From Desulfobulbaceae bacterium (GTDB lineage Bacteria > Desulfobacterota > Desulfobulbia > Desulfobulbales > Desulfobulbaceae), in assembly GCA_023544645.1 (NCBI GenBank), contig JAMJFO010000024.1, positions 1-47,568 on the forward strand: 47,568 nucleotides of DNA. The letters run 5' to 3'. Positions 20,357 to 39,545 of the stretch are shown piece by piece. Within the stretch, counting starts at the first letter, position 1. Each line of letters begins with the position of its first letter. The notes under the pieces were generated by a model. The model saw only the letters and a program-made list of their open reading frames with translations. It was not told the origin of the DNA and searched no databases. The translations under genes were made by a program, and so were the position numbers.

Positions 20357-23300
20357 CTACTCATTTGTGCCGTGGATAATGATACCATCGGAACCAACCG
20401 TAAAAATATCAGTGGTTTCCATGCTGCCCCAAACACTCTTCAGTGAGCTGTCAGAGCCAAAATCAACAACCTGCACACTATTGCCGTCATAGTAAATAAA
20501 TGTATCATCCTGGCCGACGGCAAAGACGTCGGTTTCCGAACTGCACCACAAGCCATACAGATTGCTGCCCGTTGCCGATTCCAGAAACCTCCAGCCCAAG
20601 CCGTTATACTGCAGGAACGTTCCTCCCTGTCCCACAACAAACACGCTGGTCTCGGAACAGCCTCGAACACTGTACAGATCATTGGTTGTCGGAGACGCCA
20701 TGGAGCGCATGGCAATGCCGTCATAATGAAGCATTATCCCGCCCTGTCCGACCAGATACACATCGTCTGCCGAGCGGCCCCAGACACTGTACAGATCCTC
20801 CTTGACCTTATTTTTAATACTGGCCCAGCCGGTTCCATCATAGTTGAGGAAGGTACCGCGCTGACCGACAGCGTACATCTCTGCCTGCGCGGCGCCCCAC
20901 ACATCGTACAGCGTCCTGCTGGTCGGAGAAGCCATGGCGTCCCAATCCAGGCCGTTATATCGGAGAATAGCTCCTCCCGTACCGACGGCAAATATATCGG
21001 TGATCCGCCCACCCCGGATACTGTTCAGCGTGGTTGTTACCGGAGAGTCCATGGCATCCCATTCATATCCATCATAATGCAGGATCGTTCCCAGCATGCC
21101 GACGGCATAAACATCCGAGGCTGAGCGGCCCCAGACACTGTTCAAACCTTCAAGAGCGGCTACCAGTGACTGCCACTTCCCACCGTCATGGTAAAGTAGA
21201 GTCAGATCCTGACCTGCAGCGAAAACTCCTGTTTGCCAACTGCCCCAAACGCAGTTAAGATCTTTTACCGTCGGGGAGTTCATTGCACTCCAGCCTTGAC
21301 CGTCATGGTGGATGATCGTGCCGGCTGAACCCACAGCATAGATGTCGGAAAAAGAGGTTCCCCAAATCCCCTTCAGATGCCTGGTAGTCGGCGAGTCCAC
21401 CTTATTCCATTTCTTGGCGCCGCTTTTGAGAACAATCCCATCCCGGCCGACGGCATAGACCTCGAAACGTGAGCTTCCCCACACACCATACAGATCATTT
21501 TTGGTGGCGGATTTCACCGTGCGCCACCGGGCGCCGTCATAACTGGCTATGGTGCCCCGTTCCCCAACAACATAGATAGCGATATTATTGGTGCCGGCAT
21601 CAAAAATTCCCCAGATTCCATGGAGATCATTATTGGTCGGCGATTCCATCTCGGTCCAGTTGGCCCCGTTGTAATGGAAAATGACCCCATGCTGGCCCAC
21701 GGCATAGACATCAAGTGGCGAGAATCCCCATACGCCCTGCAGATCAGTGCCAAGCGAGGCCATGACGTTCCAGTCTATGCCGTCATAATGCACAATGACG
21801 CCGCCGGAACCCACCGCAAAAACATCAACCCCATTACTGTCCGGATCAATGCTTCCCCATACCCCGAACAGATCCTCCTCGGTGTTGGCATCCATAAAAC
21901 TCCAGTCCGTGCCGTCATGATGGAGGATCATGCCGTCCTGCCCGACGGCAAACACCTGTGGCGAGCCGGCATCCGTCCAGACACCGTTCAGGTCTGCCGA
22001 AGGAAGTTTGTCCCCCAGAGTCCACGCCATTTCATCAAACATACGGTCTTCAGGCGTCGGCCCTTCTCCTCCGCCGGGAGGAGCGAGGAGGGTCAATGTA
22101 ACCTCTATAGCAGCGGGGCTGGCAAAAGCGTCCAGACCTGTCACGGTAATTACGCCCGTATATGTGCCGGCGGCCAGTGACGTTACATCCGCCAGCACTG
22201 TCACCTTGTCGCCCCCGGAGCCGGAACCTGCGATAATCCCTGATACCGTGCTCATGGATATCCAGGGATGGCTGGCAGCAGCGTTCCAGCTCAGGGTCGC
22301 CGAGCCCCCATTGGCAACGGTAAAGTATTGGGGAACAGGTGTGGTTCCGACTTCGGAAACAAAAGACAATGAACCGGGCATGACAGATACTATGGAGGAA
22401 GGGTGTATCGTCAGCGCAACGTCGACGACCTCTTGCATTCCGGTATCCCCGATGAAAAGAATGCTTCCTTTATGAACACCCGGCTCCAGGCCGGTTTTAT
22501 TTACTTTGACATGCAGCCTGTTTTCCTTCCCCGGCATAACAATGCCGTTGGAATGGGATAAACCGGAAAGGCTGATCCAGCTTTCATCTGCGGCGGCCTG
22601 CCAGTGCAGGGACATGTTGCCGATATTGGTTACAGTTATTGCCTGCCTGGCCGGATTTTCTCCACCTTCCTCGGCTTCAAAAGACAAGACGGATGGATCA
22701 ATCTCCATACCCACATACCCGTAGACTCCCTCCTCATAAAGGCCATACACTTCAACGGTGCCGGTCGTATGCGAGGCGATATAGAGTTTATTGGCCGCAC
22801 CTGCCGCCAACCCCATCGGTATCATAAAGAGATCGTCAACCAGGTCATTGACAAAACCTATATAGTCGCCGTTATTTTCATAGACAAGGACCATATTCAG
22901 CTGGGAATCCGATACATAGATTCTGCTGCGCGAGTCTGTGGTTATTCGCTGCGGCCACAGCAGCTGCCCTGCTTCTTCTCCATAATTACTGAAGCTGCGG
23001 CGATAATTACGGTTCAGGTCAAAAAACTGAACCCGGGCTCCCCCCGCACTGTCAAGAACCACTATTTCCCGGGCCGCGGCATCAATGGCAATGGAGAGAG
23101 GCCGGTAAAACTGGCCGTCGCCGGTCCCCTGCTCTCCCAGTGCGCCGATCAGCACACCATTGACCGAACTGTATATCCCGACGGCATGCTTCCATTTATC
23201 CACCACATAGACGTTTCCGGCCGGATCAATGGCAATATCGTTGGGCTGGCTGAATTCCCCGTCTCCTTTGCCAAGTTTGAAGAGCAGGTTGCCATCTGGA

Positions 23301-23707
23301 TCAAAAACCGCAACATTGCCGCTATTATTGTTGCCGACATATATCCTGCCCCCTGCATCCACGGCCACACTGACAGGTTGGGCCAGCCCGCTGACACTGC
23401 GCAGCAGACTGCCGCCGGAACTCAGGACAACAACCCGGCCGGCATACGAATCAGCAATATATACTCGACCTTCTTGATCGAGAGCGACATCAGTGGGTGA
23501 TGTTATATATCGGGAGAGCGGGGCCAGCCTCTCCACGTTGGACATGTTGTCCGGAGGGGGAGCGGATTCCTCTCCTCCACCCAGGTCCAACCCCATTCCC
23601 ATGGCTGACCCGCCGAGGCAAAGCATGAGCAGGGCGATCATCACTGCAAGTCGTTGGCATCTTCTTCCAGCCTTGGTAATCTGCCGTATTATTGCCGCTG
23701 TTTTCAT
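20357..23707 (-). CDS. Secreted multi-propeller protein (NHL, BACON-like, 14 tandem repeats)
   Basis: This 1,116-residue protein starts with a signal peptide (basic residues, then a hydrophobic run ending near LGGSAMG at about residue 36). Residues 65-330 hold six NHL repeats (for example DEGRVYIADSYAGRVVVL-type blades), enough for a six-bladed propeller. Residues 333-545 look like two BACON/Ig-like domains, each with an LSW/LHW...W(I)S pattern. Residues 570-1116 are fourteen repeats of about 39 residues of the form LxxVWGsxxxDVyAVGxxGtIlhYDGxxW, which also resemble propeller blades. No enzyme motif is seen. It lies 129 bases downstream of the giant cytochrome on the same strand, so a joint cell-surface role is likely but inferred. 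Confidence 0.85.
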   Translation of the reverse strand: MKTAAIIRQITKAGRRCQRLAVMIALLMLCLGGSAMGMGLDLGGGEESAPPPDNMSNVERLAPLSRYITSPTDVALDQEGRVYIADSYAGRVVVLSSGGSLLRSVSGLAQPVSVAVDAGGRIYVGNNNSGNVAVFDPDGNLLFKLGKGDGEFSQPNDIAIDPAGNVYVVDKWKHAVGIYSSVNGVLIGALGEQGTGDGQFYRPLSIAIDAAAREIVVLDSAGGARVQFFDLNRNYRRSFSNYGEEAGQLLWPQRITTDSRSRIYVSDSQLNMVLVYENNGDYIGFVNDLVDDLFMIPMGLAAGAANKLYIASHTTGTVEVYGLYEEGVYGYVGMEIDPSVLSFEAEEGGENPARQAITVTNIGNMSLHWQAAADESWISLSGLSHSNGIVMPGKENRLHVKVNKTGLEPGVHKGSILFIGDTGMQEVVDVALTIHPSSIVSVMPGSLSFVSEVGTTPVPQYFTVANGGSATLSWNAAASHPWISMSTVSGIIAGSGSGGDKVTVLADVTSLAAGTYTGVITVTGLDAFASPAAIEVTLTLLAPPGGGEGPTPEDRMFDEMAWTLGDKLPSADLNGVWTDAGSPQVFAVGQDGMILHHDGTDWSFMDANTEEDLFGVWGSIDPDSNGVDVFAVGSGGVIVHYDGIDWNVMASLGTDLQGVWGFSPLDVYAVGQHGVIFHYNGANWTEMESPTNNDLHGIWGIFDAGTNNIAIYVVGERGTIASYDGARWRTVKSATKNDLYGVWGSSRFEVYAVGRDGIVLKSGAKKWNKVDSPTTRHLKGIWGTSFSDIYAVGSAGTIIHHDGQGWSAMNSPTVKDLNCVWGSWQTGVFAAGQDLTLLYHDGGKWQSLVAALEGLNSVWGRSASDVYAVGMLGTILHYDGYEWDAMDSPVTTTLNSIRGGRITDIFAVGTGGAILRYNGLDWDAMASPTSRTLYDVWGAAQAEMYAVGQRGTFLNYDGTGWASIKNKVKEDLYSVWGRSADDVYLVGQGGIMLHYDGIAMRSMASPTTNDLYSVRGCSETSVFVVGQGGTFLQYNGLGWRFLESATGSNLYGLWCSSETDVFAVGQDDTFIYYDGNSVQVVDFGSDSSLKSVWGSMETTDIFTVGSDGIIIHGTNE

Positions 23708-23836: not shown

Positions 23837-26800
23837 CTATTCCTTTTCATCCGCACCCAGGTCAATGCCCGAACCCAGGGGCCTGGCATCGCCATCAATA
23901 TCGTCCGATGGAGCGCCGGCAGCTGTTCCCTGGTCAACAACGGGCGATCCGGACTGGAGATGGAAATCTCCAGCCGTAGTCGGCGCGGGATTTGTCTCGT
24001 AATCAAAGGAGACGAAGTTCGGGTCTGTGGCTGTGTCCGTATAGGACTGTGAATCAACCGATCCATCAATTTCAGGGTTAATCTCCCCTGAGGAATGGTT
24101 GCCCCAGATGATGGAGTTGACAACAGTCTCCACCCCATTGGCCCGTAATCCACCACCGGCTGAGGCATAATTGCCACTTAACGTGCTGTTAAGGACATAT
24201 ATTGTCCCGCCCAGTGCCGGGGCAGGGCCATCATTGCTGTTGCCCACCCCGCCGCCATCAGCCCAGCTGGCATACACTTTGTTGCCGCTCAGGATACAGT
24301 TGGTGATATTTGCGGTTGATGTCGTCGAAGAGAGATTTATGCCGCCGCCATGGGACCAGGACTTGTTGCCACGTACATAGCTCCTGGAAATATTCAGGGT
24401 AGTACTTGCCGGGGTTGCTCCGGCAGTAAGGAATATACCGCCGCCCTTGCCGCCAGCGGCAGGTGTTGTCGAATTATCAACCGCTTCGTTTGCCTCAATG
24501 ATGCAGTTGTCAATGGTCGAAGTGAATGCAGCGGAAGCGGCATACAGAGCTATACCTCCGCCGTTCTGACCGCTGGCTGTTGTCTTGTTGCCGCTTACAG
24601 TGCTGTCAGACATATCCAGATATGATGCGCTGGCATAAATTCCGCCACCACCGTTCACACTGGTGTTGTTGCTGACGGTGGCGCCAATAATGGTCAAGGA
24701 TGAGGTATCGCTGTAAATACCCCCGCCGGACTGCCCTGCCGTGTTGGCATCAATTTCCGTATTCAGGATTGTTGCCGCAGAACCGCCTGCAACTGATATT
24801 CCTCCTCCATCATCAACCGCGGAATTACCTGTTACAATACAATCCGAAATGGTGGGAGCGGACGACCCGAGAATATTCAACCCGCCGCCGTCACCATTCC
24901 ACGGATCAAAAGAATAAGTTCCGGCGCCGTTCTGAATGGTAAAACCATCTATGGTGGAACTGTCGCCATTCCTTACCAGGACAGTAGATTGATTCGTTGT
25001 TCCGCCGTTGCCGTCAATGATGGTTACAGAAGCCCCGTTTTGCGAGCGCAGAACGATATCCTTGTTATCAAGCACCAGATTTTCAGTGTATGTGCCGTCA
25101 CAGACCTCGATAACCTGGCCGCTTGCGGAAGCATTGATCGCGGCCTGAATAGTTGTGTAATCAGCGCCGCTCGAACAGACTGTCAGATCCGCGGCGCCAA
25201 CATCGTCATCGGTGATGGTTACCGTATGGACGGTGGTCGAACCCTGGGTTGCATTGGTCGGGGCCCCCATGGTGAGGACAACCGTTTCATCCGGCTCATC
25301 CAGCTCATCCGGGATAACCGTTACCTGGATATCGGCGCTCATAGCGACGGCAGGAATAATGAGAGGACTGCCGGTTATCGTGTAATCGCCCTCAGCACCC
25401 TCTGTTGCCGTCCCGCTGACGGTAAAGGGTACGGATACGTCTCTGCCGCTGACAACATTCAACTGGACGGTGACCAGAACAGTCTCACCGGTTAAAGGAG
25501 GATCTTTTTCAATCACTGATTGCGAATCACTGGCAAAGCTGACCGTTGGCAGGTCATCATCATCGGTGATGGTTATGATCTCTTCCGTGTCCGCACCTCG
25601 GGTGGCATTGGTCAGGGTGCCCATCTGGACAATGATGGTCTCATCATCTTCATCAAGGCTGTCGTCAACCGAGGTAACGGTTATACTGCCGTCGATGGAG
25701 CCGGCCGCTATGACAACCGGGTTGGCTGAAAAGCTGAAATCATCTCCGCTTGTTGCCGTACTGCCGATACCGGCGGCAAAAGGTACGGTAACGTCGCAAA
25801 AACCAGCTTCGCTCAACTGGAAGTTAATCGTAGCGCTGCCCCCTGCTTCATCGATGGTGTTGCCGGGAACAACAGAAGTTATGGTTACACTGGGCGCGGT
25901 TATGTTAACCGTCGAATCATCTGTGGGGGCCCCATACGCAACGTAGGTGCCGTCAGAGGCATAAAATCGGTAGCTGAGGCTGCCGTCACCGTCATACCCG
26001 TATTCCAGATCCATGGTCCTGGTGAAATGCTCACCGTTGCTGTAATCGCCATCGCCGTCTCCGGCAGGGTCCATGGCCATCTTTTCGCCGGCATCGTCAT
26101 AGTCACCGTCATTATTCAGGTCGATCCAGACCTGGATAACTGTTGGCGCTTCATTATCAGCTTCCGTATATTTCACCCGGAATTCATAGGAACTGCCGCA
26201 GGAAGCGCTGTCCGGATGCACACCGTCAGTGTTGTAATCGGGCCCTCCGGTCCAGCTCAGCTGGGGTACATTTTCGCCTGCGATTCCAGGGACTTCATCG
26301 GCGCCAACATCGTATCCGTCAATCTGCGGCCTTGACTCGCCATCAATATCTACACCCAAGGGCGTTGACGGAACTTCAACATAATCAACCGCCGGGGAGA
26401 TGCTCCGGAGATGGTAATTACGGTTAAGGGCGTCAATGAAAAGCGGGTCGCTTCCTGAAATAAGGCCGTTCATGGTGGGTTTTTCGCTGCCGGCAAAATA
26501 GGGATAATCATCAAACTCGGCATCGGTATCGTTGGAAACGATCGTATCGGTGATGGCGCCACCTCCATTGACAAAGTAGGCAATATGGCCCAAACCTGAT
26601 GCAGCATTGTTCGACCAGGTGATGGAGTTTTCGATGATGAAGTTGCCGTTATCACTGAACAGGGCGCCGCCGTTACCGACAGTGGCTTCGTTGTGCGCAA
26701 TGGTGGAAAAATTGACGGCAAAGGAGCCTTTAAAGTATGCACCACCACCCTGTTGCGCCTTATTCTGTGCCAAGATCGAATTTTCCATGGTCATCGGCCC

Positions 26801-29800
26801 GCCGGCAGCCATCCGGCGCAGACCGCCGCCATTCGTGGCGGCAGTGTTACCGGTTATAGCGCTCCTGTTCAGGGCAATGCTCCCGTTGCCGGTAAAAAAG
26901 ATGCCGCCACCCTCTCCCCCGGCAAGATTATCTCTGATGGTGGTGTCGGTAAAGGTAACGTCCGCATCAAAGGAAGCGCCCCCTCCACTGCCGGTGGCCT
27001 CGTTTTCATAGATATCCGTGCGGTAAAAATCCGCACAGTCCCAGCTGGTTGCGGTAAAACCTCCACCGGTTACGCATCGATTTCTGTATATCATGGAATC
27101 GGTAATGGTCGGACAACCCGGGACGGGATCGTGAATTGATATTCCACAACCGGAACCGTCAATGGTGTTTTCATTGTCGTGAATCCAGCAATTGATGATG
27201 GTGGGCGCGGCAATGCTTATTGCGACCCCCTTGGTGCCGCCGGTGATCTGAAATCCGTCCAGAACGGCGGTCATGCCGGTTGCCGAGCCGAAACTCACGA
27301 CAGTGCCTGTATCCTGAACCGTGGTGAATTCAGGCCCGCAGACTGATCTGACCACCGTGTTATTATCATAACGATCAAAGACAATGGCGGGATAGGTCCC
27401 GGCGTCTACTAAAATTGTTTGAGCGCCAGTGGTGTCATCCAGGTAGGACTGTAATGTACCGGCAGGATCAGAGGCATAAACGATTCGCGGACCAGTCGTC
27501 GCATCAATAACGGTAAAGCTGTGAGCATCTGTTGGTGTGCCGGATGCGACATTGCCCTGATCATCATAGGCGACAAACAGGTAGTTCAGGGTTCCGTCAC
27601 CGGCATAATCCGGAGTGAGAGTTTTTGAGAAATTTTCACCGGTGCTGTACAAGCCATCGCCGTCGCCTACAGGATCCATGGCCAGTTTTTCTCCAGTATC
27701 GGAATAATCACCGTCATCATTCAGATCAACCCATACCTGGATCAAGCCCGGCGGATCATTGTCAACATCGGTATAGTTGACAAAAAAGGTAAAATCAGAA
27801 CCGCTGACCTGGGTGTATGGGTTGACTCCTTTGTCTCCACAGCTGGTGTAGGTCACCCAATCCAGCATAGGCGGGTGATCTGCCGAAAAGGGAAGCAGGG
27901 TGATGAATTTTTCAATTTCATGCACACCCGTTGCCACATCGGTTCCATCAGAGGCGTGGAACATATATCCAATACCATCATCACCGCCGACGCTGTTCAG
28001 CTCCAGGGTTAAAGTGTAGATTTTGCCGTCGTAAACCCAGGTGTCGCCGGCATCCGCCTCTTCCATGGTCAGCTTTTCATCGACGGTGTACGTCTCGTCA
28101 TCGTTGAGATCTATCCACAGCTCAATGGGACTTGGCGCTTCGTTGTTGAGATCGGTGTAGAGCACCCGGAAGGTAAAAAGGGATCCGGTCTCTGCGCTGT
28201 CCGGATCAGCGCCGTCATCGGCGTAGCCGGTTTCTCCGGTCCAATCGAGTACCGGGGCTATCTGGCTGTATTGAAAAGGATCCCTGTCTCCATATCTGGT
28301 GCCGCCATGACAATGCGAACAGAGGTTGCCGGCAGAATTACCATTCCAGGTTTTCCCGTCGCTGACAGCAAGAGGCAGGTCCTGGGGTTCCGGAGGATAA
28401 GTGGTGGAAGAAATGTTCTCATCCGTATTCGTATACCAGATTTCCAGCCCCGGTTCACGGTCGATAAGCTTGCCGTCACGAAGCATTGCCAGCCGTTCGG
28501 ACCCATGGACATTATGGCATACCACACAGGTCATCTGGCTGTTATTTCCTAAAGTGTAATTATAATCCGCCGGATACATCGTGTTTTTATTATTAAGATG
28601 AGAAAAATGCCTGTTTGTATTTCCGTCCATGGTATTGGTATTGCGATTCGACGAGTTAGTGAAAGGACCGGAATCGTGACAACTCACACATAATCTGTAC
28701 TTTTCTACGCCGTTGTCACTTGAACTACTCCATGGCCAGGGAACCACCATGGGCACCTCTCCGGCAACAAGACCCAGCCTGTAGCCCTGGTAATATTCGG
28801 TGGAGTCGCATCCATCGCTGCAGTCAAAGGTTCTGGCAGCAGCATCAATATGCGTAGAAGAAAAGTCATGACAGGCGCCGCACTCAACAGGCTTGGCCGC
28901 TCCGTTGACCAGAATCGGAGGCATGATGGCCCCCTTGTAGGAATAGGGTTCGTCGGCGGCGAGGCCGTGGCCGGTCTTGTAGAATCCCCAACCGATACCA
29001 TAAATATATGCACCGTCCTCATCACCGATGACATTGGGTGCAGTTGTTGTTCCGGTACCATCCACCAGGTTGTTGGCCGCTTCCTCGTCGTGGCAGCCCG
29101 CACACCATTTCTCCTTCCCGGCCTGCAGGGTCCGGTCACTGTTATAGACTCCGCTGTGCCAGTTATCTTTTGCACCAATGGATTCATTGACGGTGTTTAC
29201 CCCATTATATGTGCCACCGGGACTGTGGCACTTGTCGCAGATATCGGTTTGGGCCAGGGTATGCCCTCCGGTTTCATCCTGGTTTTTAAACAGAGGCATC
29301 GTATAGATATCATGACAGGTATCGCAATAGATCGGCTTGAGCGTTTCGTTGTAATACTGCATCGGCCCCATCATGTCGGAATGGCCGTTACTGTCATTTT
29401 CCGTATGGGTGGAATGGCTCCAGGATGAACCGGCCCCTGCACTCGTTCCGTCAGCCTCATCGTTGGGGAACATCATATCATCATCGTAGGAATGCCCCGC
29501 GTCATGGCCATGACACTGGGAGCATCCTCCGCCGGGACCGCCATGGATGAATCCGTTTTTATGGCTGTGACACCGTATGCAGCTTGACCCCTGGGGTCCA
29601 TGGGTGTGATCACCGGCACTTGTGTTCTGATGATAGGTTGTCTGGGTGTGACAGGCTTCGCAGATGCCGTCGTAGGTGGTATCGCCGTCAGCATAGGAAT
29701 TCACTCCCTCGGTCTGGAAAAGCCTGACCGATCGGACAATATCGCCTTTATCGAGACCTATGATATTTTTCAGGTTTATTTCTTTTCTGACCAGCTTGCC

Positions 29801-30427
29801 GTAAACAATGCCGATGGTGTTATCAAGCCGGAGATGTGCAGGATCAACCGGTCCGGCAATTACCATTGCATCAGAGGTGTTGCTGACAATCCGATACCTG
29901 ACGGTGAGGTCATTGATGTCAGGAAAAAGGATATAGCCTACGAATTGATTTGTCTGCCAGGCAGGGGCACCAATCACCTCAATGACGAAATTGTCCGGAT
30001 TGCCGGGATCCTGATAAAATTGCTCCATGGCGCCGCTGTAGAGAAAAGCCGCGGGGTCGGAAGCCTGCTCCTGGGTGTGCGGATCATGACAAACCCAGCA
30101 TTCAACTGCCCATTCCCCGTACTCAGATTTGTTTCCCTTGAGGTAGGAATGCGTTTTTACCGACTCGGCATCATCATCTTTGTGGCAGTTTCGGCACAGG
30201 TTGTTACGGGGGGTATCTTCAATATCGCCGGTTGTCGGATCGCCTACCCAATCCGGCAGCAGAACTTCACCGCTGAACCCCCCGTGCATTCCATGACAAT
30301 CATCGCACCCCACGTTTTCTGCCGCGAAATGGGGATATCCTTCCGAATAGCTCTCTGATGCCGCGAACAAACCTGTTGCCAGAAAGAAAATAATATTGAA
30401 AAAGAAATATTTTTTACCAGGATTCAT
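23837..30427 (-). CDS. Giant 13-haem c-type cytochrome with beta-helix and Calx-beta domains
   Basis: This protein of about 2,196 residues has an N-terminal signal peptide (KKYFFFNIIFFLATGLFA) for export, where c-haems are attached. Thirteen CxxCH haem motifs (including CDDCH, CRNCH, CWVCH, CEACH, CIRCH, CSQCH and CSHCH) lie in the first 710 residues, with many extra histidines for the second axial ligand. Then come two Ig-like WIDLND modules (about 728-975), a parallel beta-helix (985-1380), a third WIDLND module (1390-1510), two Calx-beta domains (1515-1745) and a second beta-helix to the end. I give the ATG at 30427; a TTG nine bases upstream has better Shine-Dalgarno spacing (GAGGGG). It is probably exported to the periplasm or cell surface for electron transfer; the acceptor is unknown. 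Confidence 0.9.
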   Translation of the reverse strand: MNPGKKYFFFNIIFFLATGLFAASESYSEGYPHFAAENVGCDDCHGMHGGFSGEVLLPDWVGDPTTGDIEDTPRNNLCRNCHKDDDAESVKTHSYLKGNKSEYGEWAVECWVCHDPHTQEQASDPAAFLYSGAMEQFYQDPGNPDNFVIEVIGAPAWQTNQFVGYILFPDINDLTVRYRIVSNTSDAMVIAGPVDPAHLRLDNTIGIVYGKLVRKEINLKNIIGLDKGDIVRSVRLFQTEGVNSYADGDTTYDGICEACHTQTTYHQNTSAGDHTHGPQGSSCIRCHSHKNGFIHGGPGGGCSQCHGHDAGHSYDDDMMFPNDEADGTSAGAGSSWSHSTHTENDSNGHSDMMGPMQYYNETLKPIYCDTCHDIYTMPLFKNQDETGGHTLAQTDICDKCHSPGGTYNGVNTVNESIGAKDNWHSGVYNSDRTLQAGKEKWCAGCHDEEAANNLVDGTGTTTAPNVIGDEDGAYIYGIGWGFYKTGHGLAADEPYSYKGAIMPPILVNGAAKPVECGACHDFSSTHIDAAARTFDCSDGCDSTEYYQGYRLGLVAGEVPMVVPWPWSSSSDNGVEKYRLCVSCHDSGPFTNSSNRNTNTMDGNTNRHFSHLNNKNTMYPADYNYTLGNNSQMTCVVCHNVHGSERLAMLRDGKLIDREPGLEIWYTNTDENISSTTYPPEPQDLPLAVSDGKTWNGNSAGNLCSHCHGGTRYGDRDPFQYSQIAPVLDWTGETGYADDGADPDSAETGSLFTFRVLYTDLNNEAPSPIELWIDLNDDETYTVDEKLTMEEADAGDTWVYDGKIYTLTLELNSVGGDDGIGYMFHASDGTDVATGVHEIEKFITLLPFSADHPPMLDWVTYTSCGDKGVNPYTQVSGSDFTFFVNYTDVDNDPPGLIQVWVDLNDDGDYSDTGEKLAMDPVGDGDGLYSTGENFSKTLTPDYAGDGTLNYLFVAYDDQGNVASGTPTDAHSFTVIDATTGPRIVYASDPAGTLQSYLDDTTGAQTILVDAGTYPAIVFDRYDNNTVVRSVCGPEFTTVQDTGTVVSFGSATGMTAVLDGFQITGGTKGVAISIAAPTIINCWIHDNENTIDGSGCGISIHDPVPGCPTITDSMIYRNRCVTGGGFTATSWDCADFYRTDIYENEATGSGGGASFDADVTFTDTTIRDNLAGGEGGGIFFTGNGSIALNRSAITGNTAATNGGGLRRMAAGGPMTMENSILAQNKAQQGGGAYFKGSFAVNFSTIAHNEATVGNGGALFSDNGNFIIENSITWSNNAASGLGHIAYFVNGGGAITDTIVSNDTDAEFDDYPYFAGSEKPTMNGLISGSDPLFIDALNRNYHLRSISPAVDYVEVPSTPLGVDIDGESRPQIDGYDVGADEVPGIAGENVPQLSWTGGPDYNTDGVHPDSASCGSSYEFRVKYTEADNEAPTVIQVWIDLNNDGDYDDAGEKMAMDPAGDGDGDYSNGEHFTRTMDLEYGYDGDGSLSYRFYASDGTYVAYGAPTDDSTVNITAPSVTITSVVPGNTIDEAGGSATINFQLSEAGFCDVTVPFAAGIGSTATSGDDFSFSANPVVIAAGSIDGSITVTSVDDSLDEDDETIIVQMGTLTNATRGADTEEIITITDDDDLPTVSFASDSQSVIEKDPPLTGETVLVTVQLNVVSGRDVSVPFTVSGTATEGAEGDYTITGSPLIIPAVAMSADIQVTVIPDELDEPDETVVLTMGAPTNATQGSTTVHTVTITDDDVGAADLTVCSSGADYTTIQAAINASASGQVIEVCDGTYTENLVLDNKDIVLRSQNGASVTIIDGNGGTTNQSTVLVRNGDSSTIDGFTIQNGAGTYSFDPWNGDGGGLNILGSSAPTISDCIVTGNSAVDDGGGISVAGGSAATILNTEIDANTAGQSGGGIYSDTSSLTIIGATVSNNTSVNGGGGIYASASYLDMSDSTVSGNKTTASGQNGGGIALYAASAAFTSTIDNCIIEANEAVDNSTTPAAGGKGGGIFLTAGATPASTTLNISRSYVRGNKSWSHGGGINLSSTTSTANITNCILSGNKVYASWADGGGVGNSNDGPAPALGGTIYVLNSTLSGNYASAGGGLRANGVETVVNSIIWGNHSSGEINPEIDGSVDSQSYTDTATDPNFVSFDYETNPAPTTAGDFHLQSGSPVVDQGTAAGAPSDDIDGDARPLGSGIDLGADEKE

Positions 30428-31089: not shown

Positions 31090-33900
31090 TCAGAGAAACG
31101 ATCTTTGACGATTGACCAGAACCCGCAAGATGGTATCCAATACCTCGTCGAGGTTACCGCCGATATCCTCGGCAAGGAAACGGAGGACGAAATACCCGTT
31201 TTCCTGCAGCAACCTGTCCTTTCGACGATCACGGCGATAAGCGGAAGGATCAGCCAGATGCTGGGCACCGTCAAGCTCGATCGCCAGGCGGGAATCGGTG
31301 TCGAGCAGATCGACCTCCATTCGTCCCCGTCCGTCGAAAGGGATAGGCAACTCCACATTCAAAAGAAATCTGCCGGCAGTTTGCGGCAGGGATTCCAGCC
31401 GCCGGTATAAAAACGCTTCGCTCGCGCTTCGGGCCCGGTCAACTCCTATGGCCCCGGGAGAGATCCGGGAGGTCGCATTGAGGAACAGGGTGGCAAGCGG
31501 CCTGTCCACCCCGTCGTGAATCAACCGCCGAACGCTGCCGGCATAATTTTGTTTCCAAAGCGGATCCGCTGGTAGCGCTACTTCGGCCGGCCAGCCGGGA
31601 GCAGCGCTGGCGGGGAGCTGAATAGTATAGCCGATCGCTTCATATCCCCGGCAGCGACGTTCAAACATTCTTGCCAGCATCGGCGCCTCGAGATCGGCGT
31701 AATCGTAGATCCTGACTTCGCGCTTACGGTCATGCAGACGGTGCAGACGCCCGGCATACTGGGCAATAATGCCCCGCCACGATACGGGCAGGGCAAGAAA
31801 CAGGGTATCCAGCCGAGCTTCGTCGAATCCTTCCCCGATAAAGCGGCCGGTTGCCAGCAGGACCCGATTCCCGTCTTCCGCAACCGCGGCCAGCCGATCC
31901 CTGGCAGCCTGCAACTGCCTTTTGCCCATGCCGCCCCGCAGGACGATTACCTGGCGGACTTCCCCTTGCAAGCGTTCTTCCAGCAATTTGAGATGTTCCC
32001 TGCGCTCGGTCAACACCAGCGGAAAGCGTCCTTGCCTGACCGCCTCCACGATATCCTCACAAAGTATCCGGTTCCGTTCATCATCCGCAATCAGCTCGCT
32101 GTACAACTGATGGAGCGGGACAGGGGCATCGGTGTCCGCCTCCAACCGGGAGGAAAACGAGGTCGGGCGAACCAGCACGGTATGGGCAAAGGGCCGCGCC
32201 AACGCCTCCTGCCTGGGTTCAACACGATACCGCACCGGCCCGCATTGCATGAATATAATCGGATGATGCCCATCCTTGCGGACCACGGTGGCGGACAGCC
32301 CGGTGACGAACCTGGCTTTGGCCCGCCTGGCGGCAAGCTCGAAGCTACGCGCCGACAGATGGTGACATTCATCCACCACCAGATGTCCGTAGTCACCGAC
32401 CAAATCATCGACCCGGCCCTTGCGCACCAGGCTCTGGATGACAGCAACATCCAGCGCGCCCGTTACCTTTCGGCGGCCTCCGCCGATGCGGCCAATATCC
32501 TCCATCGGCAAATCCAGGAAGGTCGATAAACGTTCAACCCACTGCTCCAGCAGCTGTCGCCGGTGGACCAGGACCAGGGTATTGACGCCGCGTTGGGCGA
32601 TAAGCCAGGCCGCGATAACCGTCTTGCCGAAGGCCGTTGTGGCCGACAAAACCCCTGTATCATGCGCCAGCATCGCCCTGGCGGCTGCCATCTGCCCGGG
32701 CCGCAACTCCCCTTGAAAGGCGACCGGGAGCGGTTTGCCCGGGCAGCGCGCATCACGAGTTTCCGGCCGCACCTGCAACTCCTCCAGCAGGCGCGTCACC
32801 TCTTCAAGGCAACCTCGCGGCAGGCCGATATGATGTGGATAGTCTTCGGCGCAGGCGATGATCCGTGGTGTGTTGTAGATCGACCGACGCATTGCCTGGG
32901 CCTTGTAGAATTCCGGATTCTGAAAGGCCGCCAGACGCAGCAACCGGTTGCGAAGGCCGGGAGGAAGTTCCTCCTTGGCCAGGTAGATCTGATCTTCCAG
33001 CACGAGTTCCAGGCCCTCGGGCAAGTTCGTAAGGGGCGGCTCTTTTCGCCGGCGCGAGGGTGACAGGGACCAGGGCGCCTTGTCGTCTTCCTCGTCTGTC
33101 GGTGCAAGACGGACACCGGTCACTCCGCCTTGCGATTCCGCCTGCCGGACGATTTCCTCCGCCTGCCCCAGACCGATTTTTTGGACGGAGGCCAGGAAGG
33201 CCCATTGGTCCGGGTAAGGAACAAAAGAATCGTCGAGAAAAAGGGAGTTGCCCCGGGCCCGAGATTCCTTCTGCAACGGCAGAGCGATAAGATTGCCCAG
33301 CCCCCCTTGGGGCAGAGTGTCCTGGTTGGGGATGAACCGGTCGTATGAATCAAAGCCGATATCAGGCCGCTTCGCCATGGTCTCGGTGAGGAGAGAGGAG
33401 GCCAGTTTCCGGGCCAGCGCCGCCGGCATCGGTTGCTGGAAAAAGAACCAAACATGGCCGCCGTTACCGGAACGCGACCGCTCCAATACCGCCGGCACCT
33501 GCAGGCGGCGACATGTTTCCAGGAAGGCTCCCACGTCTTTCCGCCAGTATTCCTTGTCAAAATCGACGGCAAGCAGGAAACAGCTCTCATCCAGCAACAT
33601 GGGATAGAGCCCCATGACAAATTCCCGGCCCGCCTCGTCCTGCCCGGAAAGATGCCAGCGGACCACTTCATCCGTCACCGGCAGAAACCGCTGATTGGGG
33701 CATTGAACACACTTCACCCTTCTCTTGTCGCACAGGCCCCGAACCCATTCGTTGGCACAGGCCGGCTGGTACCCAGCCTTACCGCTTTTCCGGCTCTCAA
33801 ACCGGCGGGGGTAGACATCTTCCCGGCCGCGAAAGAGACCGCGGAACAGACCAATCTTGACCTCCGCCGGCGAATTGTTATGCACAATGGACTCAACCAT
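31090..33900 (-). CDS. Primase-helicase-nuclease fusion (AEP-TOTE type, SF2, DUF559-like)
   Basis: This 936-residue protein joins three activities. Residues about 40-230 resemble the archaeo-eukaryotic primase domain of TOTE-type conflict proteins. It has a Cys cluster (C48, C57, C64, C67), the metal-binding DFD at 113-115, SGNGGH at 144-149 and the downstream GNLIALPLQ. Residues about 395-790 are an SF2 helicase with Walker A TTAFGKT (421-427), DECH (510-513), SAT (536-538) and a QYAGRLHR motif VI. Residues about 815-936 resemble a DUF559/VSR-like PD-(D/E)xK nuclease (EVD at 862-864, IELDGAQH at 874-881). It is the last gene of the block, 36 bases after the Pif1-like gene. A defence role is inferred; function is not shown. 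Confidence 0.85.
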   Translation of the reverse strand: MVESIVHNNSPAEVKIGLFRGLFRGREDVYPRRFESRKSGKAGYQPACANEWVRGLCDKRRVKCVQCPNQRFLPVTDEVVRWHLSGQDEAGREFVMGLYPMLLDESCFLLAVDFDKEYWRKDVGAFLETCRRLQVPAVLERSRSGNGGHVWFFFQQPMPAALARKLASSLLTETMAKRPDIGFDSYDRFIPNQDTLPQGGLGNLIALPLQKESRARGNSLFLDDSFVPYPDQWAFLASVQKIGLGQAEEIVRQAESQGGVTGVRLAPTDEEDDKAPWSLSPSRRRKEPPLTNLPEGLELVLEDQIYLAKEELPPGLRNRLLRLAAFQNPEFYKAQAMRRSIYNTPRIIACAEDYPHHIGLPRGCLEEVTRLLEELQVRPETRDARCPGKPLPVAFQGELRPGQMAAARAMLAHDTGVLSATTAFGKTVIAAWLIAQRGVNTLVLVHRRQLLEQWVERLSTFLDLPMEDIGRIGGGRRKVTGALDVAVIQSLVRKGRVDDLVGDYGHLVVDECHHLSARSFELAARRAKARFVTGLSATVVRKDGHHPIIFMQCGPVRYRVEPRQEALARPFAHTVLVRPTSFSSRLEADTDAPVPLHQLYSELIADDERNRILCEDIVEAVRQGRFPLVLTERREHLKLLEERLQGEVRQVIVLRGGMGKRQLQAARDRLAAVAEDGNRVLLATGRFIGEGFDEARLDTLFLALPVSWRGIIAQYAGRLHRLHDRKREVRIYDYADLEAPMLARMFERRCRGYEAIGYTIQLPASAAPGWPAEVALPADPLWKQNYAGSVRRLIHDGVDRPLATLFLNATSRISPGAIGVDRARSASEAFLYRRLESLPQTAGRFLLNVELPIPFDGRGRMEVDLLDTDSRLAIELDGAQHLADPSAYRRDRRKDRLLQENGYFVLRFLAEDIGGNLDEVLDTILRVLVNRQRSFL

Positions 33901-33936
33901 GAGTTCTCAATATGCAGCTATTGCCGCTGTTTATAG

Positions 33937-36417
33937 CTAATTCCCTTCCGCCAGGCTGTTAACATAATTCCGATGGGCAAAAACAAGCTTGATTTCACCG
34001 TATGAATAATCGTCACCCAGGGCTTTTTTGATTTCACCGAGAGTCGCGTCCTGCATGGCAACAATTTTTTGCTCGATAATCTGCTTTTTCTCCGCGTCAA
34101 CAAGCCTGATCACATCAAGCTTCCCCTGGTCGACGAAAAACCTCAGATGCCTTTCGATGGTAGACCTGACCAAGCCCCGCTTGGCGGCAATCCGTTCAAC
34201 GGACAACCCGGACATGAACATGGCAAAACTTATCTGTTTGGTATCGCTCCTGTCCGACCTTTGCTTTTCCGGCGCCGGCTTCCCTGCGGGTTCCGGAAGC
34301 GCGACATCTGTTATGCCGTGCTTTTTGCGGTATGCGGAAACAAGCGCTACCAGTTCTTCGCCGTATTTTTCGGCGGTCCGCGCCCCGATTCCATGTATCT
34401 CTTGCAAAGCCGTGAGAGTATCAGGCAGGTTGACGGCGATCTGAATGAGAACACGCTGGTGCAGAATGCGAAACATGGGAAGTCCGTCAGCCTGGCCCCT
34501 CGTGGTACGCCAGTTTTTTAACTCCTGGAATAATTCAGGATGACCGACATCCGCTTCAGAGTAAATTATTGACTCCGCCTTCTTCCCACCGCCGGGTTTA
34601 TAATTGATTTCCGCAGCGGAAATTGCCCGCAGGTAAGGGGCAGGAGCAAAACCATTCCGGCAGGATTGCACGGCGGCAAGTTTTATGACTGTTTCCTTGT
34701 GCAGGGTGTTCAGCGCGCTGCGTAAATTCCTGCCAAGCTCCTTGTTGTCGGTATCAATATGAACACCTTCCAGGAAAGCCATCAGAATTGCTTCAATTTT
34801 TTCTTGGAAATATCCGGATGCCCTGGTCGTTCTTTCCCGGATAACCGGATCTGATTCCGGCAAGGTATCCCGCCCAAGAAGCGCCTGAAGCTGGCGCTTA
34901 AAATTCTCGCCGACCACAAATATTTCCGTACTTGCCTTTTGTTGCAACGCAGGCAAATCAACAGCGCCGGGGAGGTGGACAACCTGAATATTTTTTGTCA
35001 ACAGCCGGACAAAACGGTTCAAGAGGGATTGTAAATCCTTACAATCAAAGCATGCCAGCAGCAGACGCTGCTGATAGGCGATTTTCGCCGCTGCCAATTG
35101 CTTTCTGGTGGGTGGATTGCGGGCCGCGTTATTGGTAAAATCCGCAACCGCCGCGTCTGTTTTAACAGCTTTGGATGAAATTGGTGTACTGAGCACCATG
35201 CCTTCCAATGTTTTGCACCGACTGAGCGCCACGTAGACCTGTCCGTGCGCAAAAGCTGCCCGGGCATCGATGATGGCTTTCTCAAAAGTCAGCCCCTGGC
35301 TTTTATGAATAGTAATGGCCCAGGCCGGTTTCAGGGGAAACTGACGAAAGACGCCGATCTTATTTTCAACAATATTCCCGGATTCAGGGTCAACCGAATA
35401 TTGAATGTTTTCCCAGTTGACCGGTTCAACAACTATATCTTCCGCATCGCCGGGACATTTAACCCGGATACTCTCGCTTGAAATCTTTGTTACCGCACCT
35501 ATCTTGCCGTTGTAGTACAACTTATCCGATGAGGAATCATTGCGGACAAACATTACCTGCGCCCTCTCTTTAAGCTCAAGCAACGCCGGGGCGGGATAAC
35601 TGTACTCAGGAAACTCTCCCTCAACCTCAGCTTCAAAACAGCGATTTTTCCCGGCTAATGCCGCAAGCCAGTCCTGGTTGATGGCATCCGCCCTGCGGTT
35701 ATGGGTGCAGAGGGTTATAAACCTTTCCCGATCTTTCAGTTCAATATCAGGCACATGGCGCTTGTTGAGCTCCCGCAGGGAAACATGATCCAGGTTATTG
35801 TTTCGTACCCGATTAAGGAGCTGGATGAAGACAGGATCTGATTGGCGGTAAATATGCTGCAGTTCAATGGGGATCAGTTCTGTCTGTTTGAGAGCATTGC
35901 TGCTGAAAAAATAAGGGGAATCATAATATTGTCGCAGGATGGCCCAGTCTTCTTCCTTGACCACCGGGGGAAGCTGGTGCAGATCACCGATCATCAGCAG
36001 TTGCACGCCGCCAAAAGGCTCATGACTGTGCCGATACCGGCGCAGAACCGCGTCCACGCCGTCAAGAAGGTCCGCGCGCACCATACTGATCTCATCAATC
36101 ACCAGCAGGTCGAGACTTTGCATGATCTCAACCTTTTCCTTTTTGATTTTTTTCCGGTGAATATGCTCGGCGCTCTCCTGTCCGGGTATGAACGGGCCGA
36201 AAGGCATCTGAAAAAAGGAGTGGATAGTGACGCCGCCCGCGTTGATGGCGGCAACCCCTGTTGGAGCGGTAACAATCATCCGCTTCGGCGTTATCTCTTT
36301 AACGCAGCGGAGAAAGGTTGTCTTCCCGGTACCGGCCTTGCCTGTCAAAAAAATATGGCAGCCCGTCTCCCTGATAAAGTCGCCGGCTAAGTGTAATTCC
36401 GGATTTTTCGGTTCCAT
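33937..36417 (-). CDS. Pif1-like helicase with HRDC and C-terminal HTH domains
   Basis: This 826-residue SF1B helicase has Walker A GKAGTGKT at 26-33, the Pif1-type APTGVAAINAGGVTIHSFF, DEIS at 108-111, GDLHQLPPV, and the C-terminal TIHKSQGLTFEKAIID and YVALSRCK motifs. After a linker, residues about 632-697 form an HRDC domain and 727-826 a RecQ/YpbB-type helix-turn-helix domain. Pif1 enzymes unwind forked DNA and G-quadruplexes, and HRDC adds binding to single strands or junctions. It starts 6 bases after the SNF2 gene and ends 36 bases before the primase-helicase gene, so it sits tightly inside one transcript. Pif1-HRDC-HTH proteins also occur alone, so a defence role rests on context. Confidence 0.9.
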   Translation of the reverse strand: MEPKNPELHLAGDFIRETGCHIFLTGKAGTGKTTFLRCVKEITPKRMIVTAPTGVAAINAGGVTIHSFFQMPFGPFIPGQESAEHIHRKKIKKEKVEIMQSLDLLVIDEISMVRADLLDGVDAVLRRYRHSHEPFGGVQLLMIGDLHQLPPVVKEEDWAILRQYYDSPYFFSSNALKQTELIPIELQHIYRQSDPVFIQLLNRVRNNNLDHVSLRELNKRHVPDIELKDRERFITLCTHNRRADAINQDWLAALAGKNRCFEAEVEGEFPEYSYPAPALLELKERAQVMFVRNDSSSDKLYYNGKIGAVTKISSESIRVKCPGDAEDIVVEPVNWENIQYSVDPESGNIVENKIGVFRQFPLKPAWAITIHKSQGLTFEKAIIDARAAFAHGQVYVALSRCKTLEGMVLSTPISSKAVKTDAAVADFTNNAARNPPTRKQLAAAKIAYQQRLLLACFDCKDLQSLLNRFVRLLTKNIQVVHLPGAVDLPALQQKASTEIFVVGENFKRQLQALLGRDTLPESDPVIRERTTRASGYFQEKIEAILMAFLEGVHIDTDNKELGRNLRSALNTLHKETVIKLAAVQSCRNGFAPAPYLRAISAAEINYKPGGGKKAESIIYSEADVGHPELFQELKNWRTTRGQADGLPMFRILHQRVLIQIAVNLPDTLTALQEIHGIGARTAEKYGEELVALVSAYRKKHGITDVALPEPAGKPAPEKQRSDRSDTKQISFAMFMSGLSVERIAAKRGLVRSTIERHLRFFVDQGKLDVIRLVDAEKKQIIEQKIVAMQDATLGEIKKALGDDYSYGEIKLVFAHRNYVNSLAEGN

Positions 36418-36423
36418 AGGCCG

Positions 36424-39400
36424 TTAATTTTGATAATCCCCTGCATATAAAAACATTTCGGCGTCCCGCAGCAATTCTTCCATCATGCTTTCGGGCACCG
36501 ACGGACATTGACTGACGCTTAATGATTTGGTGATGAGATCCGCTTCAGGCTGCGTCAACAGACCTTTGGGCAGGGCCTCGCCATACACCCAGACACCGGC
36601 CTCTCGCGGCTCCACCTGATCGTTTAGGCCGGCCCGGTCGGATGCCGCGGCAAGCAGCGAGGACAGAAGCAACTCCACGGCGCTGCTTGAGAGCTTCTGC
36701 CCCGCAAGGACCTGAGCGGCCTGAAACTTTTCCATGGCAACGCTCATTAACCTGGACGGCTTTGTATCATCCGTATCCCGAGCCGCATCATAATACGTCT
36801 GCCCGGCCGCCACAGGAGAAGCGGAACCCAGACGGGAAAGACCATTCAGGGTACGAAGGTCGATGACCGCGACCGGAACCGTTTCCGATGAGAGTTGAGC
36901 AGCCATACGGTCCGCATCCGCATCCACCTGGTCAATAACCGCCAGCAAACCGCCGCCCGAGCCGAGAATCCGTTCAATCCTGCTGCCGAAAGCATCCTGC
37001 AACTCCTCAACACTATGAGCAATGGCCTCTTCCAGGCGTTTATCAGGTTTATTCTCTCCTGCCCGGCCCTCACCTGAGCGTTCCGGAGTCGGATCAGCAG
37101 CCTCAACAAAATCCTGCTCATCTTCGATTACAGGTTCCGGCTTGTTGCCGCCCGCGTAATCAGGGAGATCCTCCAGTAAATTATCCAGCAATTTTCTGGA
37201 AACACCGACAACGTCTTCACAGGCATCCTCTGAAACGACATTATCAAAGAGATCCTTTTTATTTTTGACCATCTCGAGGATCCGCTCTTCATACGACCCA
37301 CTGGCGACCATGGTTATAATCTGCACTTTTCTGGTCTGGCCGAGTCGATGGACCCTGCCGTTGCGTTGCTCAAGAACCGCGGGGTTCCAGGGCACATCCA
37401 GGTTGACCAGGACCGACCCGCTCTGCAGATTCAAACCTACCCCGCCGGCATCCGTGGACAGGAAGACCTGCACGCTGTCGTCTTCCCGGAAACGATCCAT
37501 TAAGGCGCCTCGTTTGGCAGTAGGAACCCCGCCATGCAGACGGACATAACCGATGTTCATCCTCCGCAGTCGTTTTTCCACCATCCTGGTCATCAGCTCC
37601 CACTGTGAAAACACCACCGCTTTCAGTCCCGACTGTACACATGCCTCATCCAGGATTGCGGCAAGTTCATCGATTTTGGGAGATCCCTCGGTTTCCTTGT
37701 CAACCAGACCGGCTGCATTGCAGGCCATTCGCGCCTGTTGCAAGGCAGCCATCAGCCGATTCTGTTCGGTAGGCGTCAAGGGGCGGCGCTGGGCAATCTG
37801 CCCGAGATTCCCGGCAGCGCTCATGGCAGAGTCGTGCAACTCCATCTGCTTAGCAGTCATTTCGATATCAAGGCGCTGCTCTATTCTGTCCGGCAGCTGA
37901 TCGTGAACCAACCGCCGGTCGCGCCGGAGCATGACCGGCGCCAGGCGCTTCCGGAGCACGGAAAGGTTGCGGTACCCCAGCACCTTGCCCCGCTCATCGG
38001 TCAAATGAAAGTCGATCATATACTTCCACAGAGGCCCAAGGACACCGGGGTCAACTACCTGCATCAGGCTGTACAGCTCTTCCAGCCGATTCTCCAGCGG
38101 AGTGCCGGACAGAACAAAAGCGTATCTGCTTGGTATAAGCTTGACCGCCGAGGCGATTTTGGTGCGCCAGTTTTTTATGCGCTGGGCCTCATCCAGGATA
38201 ATCAGATCCGGCCGCAGACTTTCGTTAATAACAGAAAGGTCCCGCAGGATAAGCTCATAATTGATAATATGGAAGGTGTCCTGACCGCGATACTGCACGC
38301 CGCGTTTTGCCGGCGGCCCCTGGATGATCTGGCAGGAGAAATCAGTAAATTTACCGATTTCTCTCGCCCATTGCTGCTTCAGGGAAGCGGGACAGATAAT
38401 GAGAATCTTCCGGACATTTTCACATGTACACAGCCAGGCCGCTGCGCTGATGGCCTGGAGGGTTTTACCGAGCCCCATGTCATCAGCCAGCAGGGCCCGG
38501 CCGGTTCCAGCCAGAAAGGCTGTTCCTTCAACCTGGTAGGGATAAAGCCTGGCACGAACTCCCGGGACCCTGCCGCTTGATCGAATCCGGCCGCGAATCT
38601 CCTGCGACCGTATTGTATGCGCATCATCGGCAGCAAGCTTGCGCGCATGCGCAACGGCATCTTCGCCGATGTGAATATCACCCCGTTCGTCGGCGATTTC
38701 CGTAAACCGGAAAAAATCATCAGGAACACGACCGGTAAAGCTTCCGGATGCATCAAAATAGTCATTCAGGATAGACTGGACGTTTTCCGGAACAACCGGA
38801 GGCCGATGCAGGCGGACCTGTGGGGCATTTTCAACATCCCAGGCAAGATAGACATATGAAAAGGGGGCGGGTTGCCCCTGCAATTCGCCATAATTTTTCT
38901 CTTTTCGAATCTTATGCAGCACAGCTTCAATGTGCTTGCAGGTGCCCAATTGATTGCCAGCAAAGTCAGGACAATTACAATAATTAGCCCGGCGATGGAG
39001 ACTGCGGATAGTAACACGGTAACTTTTCGGAAAATGGGTGGATGACTTGATGGATGCGGCCCGCCAGACACCGAACCACGGTTCTCCGCTGGTTGGCTCG
39101 ACCTGCACCTCCGAACGACCCCGCTTGACCCGTTCTTTTATGGCGCTGTCGGCTGCGCCAAGAAGTTCATTTACCTCACCGCATTGGTCGGCATAAGCGA
39201 AAAGCACTGCCGTAATATGTCTGCAAACAGACTGCCCCTGATCATCATTACAGCTGCACCGGAAAGCAAGGTCATCCTCCTCGGTCAGCCGAACTTCAAC
39301 ATCGCAGGGAAGGTCCGAGTCAGTATCCTCTACCTGCCCCCAGAGCAAAGTATGATCCTGATCTACCTCAATTACCCGGTTCTCCTTATAATAATTGAGT

Positions 39401-39492
39401 CCCCGGCGAATAGCTTCAGCATCCGCGATTGCCTGTAAATCTTCTCCGTCAAAAAAATACGGGTCTTTATCGTGTGTATTTACTTGAGTCAT
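36424..39492 (-). CDS. SNF2-family ATPase with two SWIM zinc fingers
   Basis: This 1,022-residue Swi2/Snf2 motor has two N-terminal SWIM-type zinc fingers: C79/C81/C90/H92 and C172/C174/C185/H187 (NCPDF...CKH). The ATPase has DDMGLGKT at 337-344, DEAQ at 434-437 and a C-terminal helicase lobe ending in QRNGRVHRLGQTRKV. An acidic linker and an alpha-helical tail of about 250 residues follow. Snf2 enzymes move along double-stranded DNA and remodel bound proteins. It lies 82 bases downstream of jetD and 6 bases upstream of the Pif1 gene, with a promoter candidate in the jetD gap. Confidence 0.9.
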   Translation of the reverse strand: MTQVNTHDKDPYFFDGEDLQAIADAEAIRRGLNYYKENRVIEVDQDHTLLWGQVEDTDSDLPCDVEVRLTEEDDLAFRCSCNDDQGQSVCRHITAVLFAYADQCGEVNELLGAADSAIKERVKRGRSEVQVEPTSGEPWFGVWRAASIKSSTHFPKSYRVTIRSLHRRANYCNCPDFAGNQLGTCKHIEAVLHKIRKEKNYGELQGQPAPFSYVYLAWDVENAPQVRLHRPPVVPENVQSILNDYFDASGSFTGRVPDDFFRFTEIADERGDIHIGEDAVAHARKLAADDAHTIRSQEIRGRIRSSGRVPGVRARLYPYQVEGTAFLAGTGRALLADDMGLGKTLQAISAAAWLCTCENVRKILIICPASLKQQWAREIGKFTDFSCQIIQGPPAKRGVQYRGQDTFHIINYELILRDLSVINESLRPDLIILDEAQRIKNWRTKIASAVKLIPSRYAFVLSGTPLENRLEELYSLMQVVDPGVLGPLWKYMIDFHLTDERGKVLGYRNLSVLRKRLAPVMLRRDRRLVHDQLPDRIEQRLDIEMTAKQMELHDSAMSAAGNLGQIAQRRPLTPTEQNRLMAALQQARMACNAAGLVDKETEGSPKIDELAAILDEACVQSGLKAVVFSQWELMTRMVEKRLRRMNIGYVRLHGGVPTAKRGALMDRFREDDSVQVFLSTDAGGVGLNLQSGSVLVNLDVPWNPAVLEQRNGRVHRLGQTRKVQIITMVASGSYEERILEMVKNKKDLFDNVVSEDACEDVVGVSRKLLDNLLEDLPDYAGGNKPEPVIEDEQDFVEAADPTPERSGEGRAGENKPDKRLEEAIAHSVEELQDAFGSRIERILGSGGGLLAVIDQVDADADRMAAQLSSETVPVAVIDLRTLNGLSRLGSASPVAAGQTYYDAARDTDDTKPSRLMSVAMEKFQAAQVLAGQKLSSSAVELLLSSLLAAASDRAGLNDQVEPREAGVWVYGEALPKGLLTQPEADLITKSLSVSQCPSVPESMMEELLRDAEMFLYAGDYQN

Positions 39493-39515
39493 ACCTCATC
39501 CCAAATTCACAAATT

Positions 39516-39545
39516 ATTATAGACAGTTATTCCAGTTCCTTCCAA
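39516..39545 (-). promoter_or_regulatory. Probable promoter of the SNF2-Pif1-primase/helicase unit
   Basis: On the - strand TTGGAA (complement of 39540-39545), 18 bases, then a perfect TATAAT (complement of 39516-39521). The start codon follows 23 bases later, so the leader would be very short. It separates the helicase trio from the jet operon, though read-through from jetD is also possible since no terminator is seen between them. Confidence 0.55.

Follow-up and report, generated by a model that had tools for sequence, protein, structure and literature searches.

The window analysed here is a 47,568-nucleotide stretch of DNA from a Desulfobulbaceae bacterium (assembly GCA_023544645.1, contig JAMJFO010000024.1), and it contains a complete gene for a giant multihaem cytochrome. 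The open reading frame (ORF) that an earlier note on this DNA placed at 23837-30427 is genuine; it is encoded on the minus strand, which the note had left unmentioned. Translation of the window gives an uninterrupted product of 2,196 amino acids, and coding on the plus strand was ruled out because that frame is rich in stops. The sequence upstream of the gene, GAGGGGAATTGTCAATC-ATG, holds a plausible ribosome-binding site. The protein consists of an N-terminal haem head and a long stalk, which is composed of two copies of a repeated module known from its WIDLND motif (here the W-module), a right-handed beta-helix, a third W-module, two Calx-beta domains and a second beta-helix (Table 1). Both this order and the tail of about 1,490 residues after the last haem agree with the earlier description. 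From its sequence, we consider with moderate confidence that the protein is an exported, outward-reaching cytochrome whose electron-carrying head is borne on a modular stalk that would dock to matrix, partner or mineral. Base composition gave no signal of horizontal transfer (52.8% G+C in the cytochrome gene versus 53.2% in neighbouring housekeeping genes), and a search for RNA families around the gene found none.

Table 1. Features of the cytochrome gene and of its neighbours in the window. The defence island is a probable one.
Feature	Residues	Window positions	Strand	Basis or remark
Complete cytochrome gene		23837..30427	-	ATG at 30427, stop codon 23837-23839
Putative Sec signal sequence (FFFNIIFFLATGLFA), without lipobox	1-20	30368..30427	-	hydrophobicity; predicted by eye
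13-haem head	41-707	28307..30307	-	13 CXXCH and 13 near-invariant extra histidines
Small beta-domain between haems 3 and 4	~125-212	29792..30055	-	predicted local distance difference test (pLDDT) ~70-87
W-module 1	724-844	27896..28258	-	hidden Markov model (HMM); acidic loop IDLNDDETY...DEK
W-module 2	852-973	27509..27874	-	HMM; loop VDLNDDGDY...GEK
Right-handed beta-helix 1	~1004-1385	26273..27418	-	sequence; homology to PF13229-positive relatives
W-module 3	1387-1509	25901..26269	-	HMM; loop IDLNNDGDY...GEK; GEVED match at 1431-1454
Two Calx-beta domains	~1512-1742	25202..25894	-	PF03160, two stretches
Right-handed beta-helix 2	~1746-2196	23840..25192	-	NF041518 E=2.4e-13; NosD 5.2e-6
NHL beta-propeller gene (1,116 amino acids)		20357..23707	-	next gene downstream of the cytochrome, 129 bases away
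TOTE-type primase-helicase		31090-33900	-	defence island
PIF1-like helicase		33937-36417	-	defence island
SNF2 helicase		36424-39492	-	defence island
JetD_C protein		39575-40756	-	defence island; divergent Wadjet/Mks condensin set
MksF-like protein		40410-43115	-	defence island; divergent Wadjet/Mks condensin set
MksE		43112-43663	-	defence island; divergent Wadjet/Mks condensin set
MksB-like protein		43660-45078	-	defence island; divergent Wadjet/Mks condensin set

The head carries 13 CXXCH motifs, starting at residues 41, 78, 110, 256, 283, 302, 368, 397, 442, 516, 580, 634 and 703, which confirms the thirteen haems that had been claimed. When residues 21-723 were shuffled in 2,000 trials, the mean number of such motifs was 0.05 and the maximum 2. 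The profiles PF14522 and PF09699 match the cytochrome. The head also resembles the DmsE decahaem family (E=2.9e-4), far below the cut-off, and we attributed this to a likeness of haem motifs in general. An alignment of 17 heads, with 38-49% identity to the window head, shows 12 of the haem sites in 16 heads or more and the last site in 14; among the three heads in which the last site is not aligned, one has a misaligned CX3CH and one a masked stretch. Exactly 13 further histidine columns persist in 15 or more of the 17 heads (residues 33, 93, 117, 289, 295, 308, 338, 341, 487, 526, 607, 610 and 641), and the next best column reaches only 10. Because exactly 13 extra conserved histidines stand beside 13 haem sites, bis-histidine ligation throughout is suggested, and one distal histidine for each haem would be the simplest reading. 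Some relatives have wider motifs at positions where the window protein has CXXCH: haem 1 is CX3CH in L047 and L068, and haem 11 is CX4CH to CX5CH in L046, L048 (1734-10319), L060 and L061. The small beta-domain between haems 3 and 4 is the sole part of the head that AlphaFold, modelling without haems, predicts confidently. A Foldseek search with the head model gave small-beta-barrel matches at E of 0.02 or more alone, and these were not used.

Bis-histidine ligation occurs in known long-range electron carriers and likewise in the cytochrome filaments OmcS, OmcE and OmcZ. The ligation suggested for the head is also what would be expected if it polymerised into a filament of this kind, with the stalk decorating or capping the filament. 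We regard such polymerisation as unlikely, since family-profile searches found no significant sequence match to the solved filament cytochromes, and a filament would be crowded if each of its subunits bore a tail of some 1,490 residues.

The union of head and stalk is not a fusion or assembly artefact, because collinear relatives exist: residues 8-2194 and 8-2196 of the window protein align in L046 and L048. Separate genes for head and helix were sought in close relatives and not found, and the same layout recurs in distant ones, so the single polypeptide of the earlier note stands. A head and W-modules share a single ORF in 19 cases, which come from nine other families, eight of them in the order and one outside. 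These relatives have a head, two or three W-modules and mostly a beta-helix, often followed by four further W-modules and a second helix. The relatives on named contigs belong to Desulfobulbaceae and other deltaproteobacterial metagenome-assembled genomes. Their lengths in amino acids are 2,708 (L046), 2,775 (L047), 3,303 and 2,861 (L048, in tandem), 2,624 (L056), 2,739 (L060), 2,930 (L061) and 3,044 (L063), with shorter forms of 1,466-1,537 in L084-L086. Their heads usually have 12-13 CXXCH motifs, with one case of 23, the W-tailed L063 (893-10027), in which extra haem segments are inserted in the head. Complete head-stalk genes are paired on one contig at L048 (1734-20526, in tandem) and at L060/L061 (G071:C161), which suggests local duplication. 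Of the 258 genomes of the order, 16 contain W-modules (12 of 69 genera), as do 5 of the 395 that were sampled across the phylum, the window's own included; two W-module genomes of one other family (f41) also have the haem head. The distribution is patchy, and the cytochrome family occurs mainly in one order, which on the evidence of the named contigs is probably Desulfobulbales.

The stalk begins with the W-modules, for which 32 copies define a common pattern of 124 positions. AlphaFold2 predicts them as tandem Ig-like domains with a pLDDT of 91. In sequence and in structure alike, the closest solved relative comes from a bacterial xanthanase, in which it forms an accessory module (6fhj, E=2.7e-9 by sequence), and comparison of the W-module model with 6fhj/6fhn gave a Z score of 13.6 and a root-mean-square deviation of 1.7 A over 104 residues. 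The xanthanase module shares the fold but is without the acidic loop. This loop follows the pattern D-x-N/D-D-D/N-G-x-Y...E, with the first Asp and the Asn/Asp at position 3 present in all 32 modules, and the aromatic residue at position 8 and the closing Glu each in 31. It agrees with the EF-hand loop at positions 1, 3, 5, 6, 8 and 12/13. The earlier note had proposed a comparison with EF-hand and dockerin calcium loops, and the likeness extends to the loop but not to the fold: the modelled W-module is all-beta, in place of the helix-flanked loop of those families, and neither EF-hand nor dockerin profiles match the W-modules or the rest of the cytochrome. As modelled, the W-module is an Ig-like domain with an inserted EF-hand-like acidic loop, and judging from the loop residues it plausibly binds calcium.

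The proposal that the WIDLND module constitutes a new Ig-like family thus holds for the Ig-like fold and only in part for the novelty, given the xanthanase module and a second neighbour, Pfam GEVED (PF20009). The whole cytochrome scores 26.7 bits against GEVED, above the gathering score of 24.4, with a best stretch that covers profile positions 2-25 only, while one relative reaches 44.9 bits over positions 2-66 of 78. Taken singly, 9 of the 32 W-modules match GEVED at E<=0.01. The two are alike in the acidic W-x-D-x-N-x-D-G loop region, but the profile aligns in part only. On these matches the W-module borders on GEVED and is only partly new. GEVED is a stalk domain of CshA-type fibrillar adhesins (PMC10952558).

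Farther along the stalk, the first beta-helix ends in a VDIDGxxRP...DVGADE cap. The Calx-beta pair matches PF03160 at E=1.8e-12 (47.7 bits versus a cut-off of 27), and the second helix closes with a choice-of-anchor Q domain (NF041518) at residues 2154-2194 (50.1 bits versus a cut-off of 25). NosD and pectinesterase matches in the beta-helices of the window protein are weak, and PF13229 (Beta_helix) is strong in the homologues. Since the beta-helix is also the fold of pectate lyases and pectinesterases, and the closest solved relative of the W-module serves a xanthanase, the protein could be imagined as a secreted redox enzyme in which the helices bind a polysaccharide or another substrate and the head supplies or collects the electrons for its conversion. 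This appears highly unlikely, as the helices match the NosD, Beta_helix and choice-of-anchor surface type and no specific enzyme family, and profile searches of the cytochrome found no catalytic domain.

Beta-helices often bind polysaccharide, and no known anchor (PEP-CTERM, LPXTG, T9SS etc.) follows the choice-of-anchor Q domain; the protein stops two residues later. All domains of the cytochrome are acidic, with isoelectric points of 4.0-4.8. These features would suit a matrix-bound electron store or relay, a secreted protein held in exopolysaccharide by its beta-helices and Ig-like modules that makes no direct contact with a partner or mineral. We find this rather unlikely, because it leaves unexplained the diversity of tails among the relatives, which looks more like target specificity.

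Head relatives with other tails include L070, which has Ig-like domains and a beta-helix, and L068 and L072, which have thrombospondin-type-3 repeats, a propeller and LamG. The tail of L071 is largely unassigned, with two W-modules near its end. Among these relatives with other tails, PF22113 matches L071 (E=7e-13) and L072 (E=5.5e-8) only; it has no match in the window cytochrome. The head of L068 (1490-8170) is 88% identical at its start to that of L047 from the same genome, falling to ~30% at its end, and its identity to the LamG-tailed L072 of another genome rises from 40% to 78% and then eases to ~60%. This shift of identity from L047 to L072 along the head directly attests recombination among heads, and that of L068 looks like an intragenic recombinant with an L047-like N-terminal half and an L072-like C-terminal half. 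In a tree of the heads, the tail types mostly cluster in their own clades; tails thus track the head tree, which alone is no proof of frequent swapping. Judged from these sequences, exchange is real, though the tree does not show it to be frequent. A broader proposal, which we advance tentatively and would not yet expect to hold in full, is that these proteins are "electron-carrying adhesins": the conserved 13-haem head would receive different stalks by recombination (W-module and beta-helix, Ig and beta-helix, or thrombospondin-type repeats with propeller and LamG), and the same electron outlet would be directed to varying surfaces or partners; a dedicated NHL-propeller protein would accompany it, and calcium would set the stiffness of the stalk.

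The proposed outward position depends on export. The most hydrophobic 15-mer of the whole cytochrome in a hydrophobicity scan starts at residue 8, which fits a Sec signal, and direct reading of the N-terminus found no lipobox. Sequence cannot demonstrate a signal for export across the outer membrane, and the protein might accordingly be a periplasmic electron reservoir with a stalk that spans the periplasm or binds peptidoglycan or lipopolysaccharide. We give this very little credence. Modules of the Ig-like, Calx-beta, beta-helix and choice-of-anchor kinds are typical of proteins outside the cell, and a length of ~40 nm, roughly estimated from module counts, exceeds the usual periplasm. The host genome encodes a type II secretin (GspD) and two decahaem cytochromes of the DmsE family, both paired with an adjacent porin-like (MtrB-like) gene; one of the porin-like proteins passes the NCBIfam MtrB/PioB cut-off and the other passes that of Pfam only. 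Counted by pattern search, the genome has 904 haem-motif DNA sites versus 145 for a reversed-pattern control. By its gene content, the host is equipped for outer-membrane electron transfer, which supports but does not prove such a role for the cytochrome. The same genome also encodes giant multihaem proteins of 1,019-2,354 amino acids with 32-39 CXXCH motifs (L013, L081 and L082 on contigs C113, C115 and C117), and several of its giant multihaem proteins share a segment resembling haems 4-6 of the window head.

How such a docking, electron-carrying cytochrome would work is inferred throughout, from export and anchoring to the ligand, the ligation of the haems, the part of calcium, the sense in which electrons flow and the end that faces the cell. 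The pre-protein would cross the inner membrane by Sec, and the haems would be attached in the periplasm with bis-histidine ligation. Export through the outer membrane could then proceed by, for example, the type II system. Calcium bound by the acidic loops and the Calx-beta domains may stiffen the stalk, which would hold the 13-haem head either close to the cell or at a distance. The beta-helices, with their caps, might attach to a partner surface, to polysaccharide or to mineral, or fasten the protein to its own cell. The head would take electrons from outer-membrane conduits, for example the DmsE-family/MtrB-like pairs, and pass them outward, or the reverse.

Several observations count against this picture. 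Neither an outer-membrane anchor nor a lipobox nor a C-terminal sorting signal can be recognised in the sequence. AlphaFold, modelling without haems, gave only a poor model for the head (pLDDT 37 overall), and family-profile searches gave the head no convincing match to any solved cytochrome, filament cytochromes included. In Desulfovibrio ferrophilus, deletions of genes for outer-surface multihaem cytochromes, some of them clustered with NHL genes, left Fe(III) oxide reduction unimpaired (PMC9769857), and therefore such genes alone do not prove a role in electron transfer.

The gene next to the cytochrome encodes an exported-looking protein with an NHL beta-propeller, two BACON domains and C-terminal repeats. 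An NHL-propeller gene lies on the same strand in 13 of 22 other loci, usually adjacent to the cytochrome, and several of the remaining 9 have truncated flanks; most loci whose flanks are long enough therefore show this pairing, which the earlier note does not mention. The window's genome carries a second giant gene (contig C145), whose 5' end is cut by the contig edge so that it starts inside a W-module, and which has an NHL paralogue after it (45% over 590 residues). In the scheme above, the NHL protein probably acts outside the cell as a partner of the cytochrome or as a factor in its assembly. On the other side, the cytochrome gene is adjoined by a probable defence island (31090-45078, minus strand). 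Transposase fragments of the Mutator family and of the integrase-core type lie at 45187-45603 and 47097-47567 (minus strand), at the contig end, where G+C is lower (44%).

At stake is how such bacteria choose and hold an extracellular electron partner. A cytochrome that unites the electron carrier with what is presumably a binding stalk, with stalks that differ between related heads and with a recurrent neighbour gene, would open the specificity of electron transfer for partner or surface to direct tests by domain swaps. The 13 haem sites and 13 histidines followed by W-modules also provide a sequence signature for metagenome searches.

The fusion of a cytochrome with adhesion-like modules is less unusual than the earlier note had stated, since precedents exist. 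The MHC-C proteins of anaerobic methanotrophic archaea (ANME) are very large extracellular multihaem cytochromes with a pectin-lyase-like domain, for which partner recognition has been proposed (PMC9012536, Chadwick et al. 2022). By description they resemble the window protein in having a beta-helix domain and haems on one polypeptide. However, MHC-C is archaeal and its pectin-lyase-like domain is N-terminal, whereas in the window protein the haems are N-terminal and two helices stand behind Ig-like spacers. OetF of syntrophic sulfate reducers is a cytochrome with fibronectin domains, for which matrix binding or partner recognition has been suggested (PMC10553843, Murali et al. 2023). It is likewise a Desulfobacterota cytochrome of extracellular electron transfer with adhesion-like domains, a likeness by description. 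In place of fibronectin domains, the window protein has W-modules, beta-helices and Calx-beta domains, with an NHL neighbour and no conduit gene in the window. In D. ferrophilus, NHL beta-propeller genes are clustered with multihaem cytochrome genes thought to act at the outer surface (DFE_0448-0451 and DFE_0461-0465; PMC9769857). This resemblance is one of gene content, and no stalk is described for those cytochromes. Outer-membrane cytochromes of the MtrC/OmcA type are also multihaem proteins with small beta-domains, but the window protein differs from them in having no PF22113 domain, no lipobox, 13 haems in one head and a long stalk. A literature search on multihaem cytochromes that bear Ig-like, choice-of-anchor, Calx-beta or beta-helix domains found none under those words. 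Within the literature searched, a bacterial head-plus-stalk family with a signature of 13 haem sites and 13 histidines, differing stalks and an NHL neighbour seems to be new.

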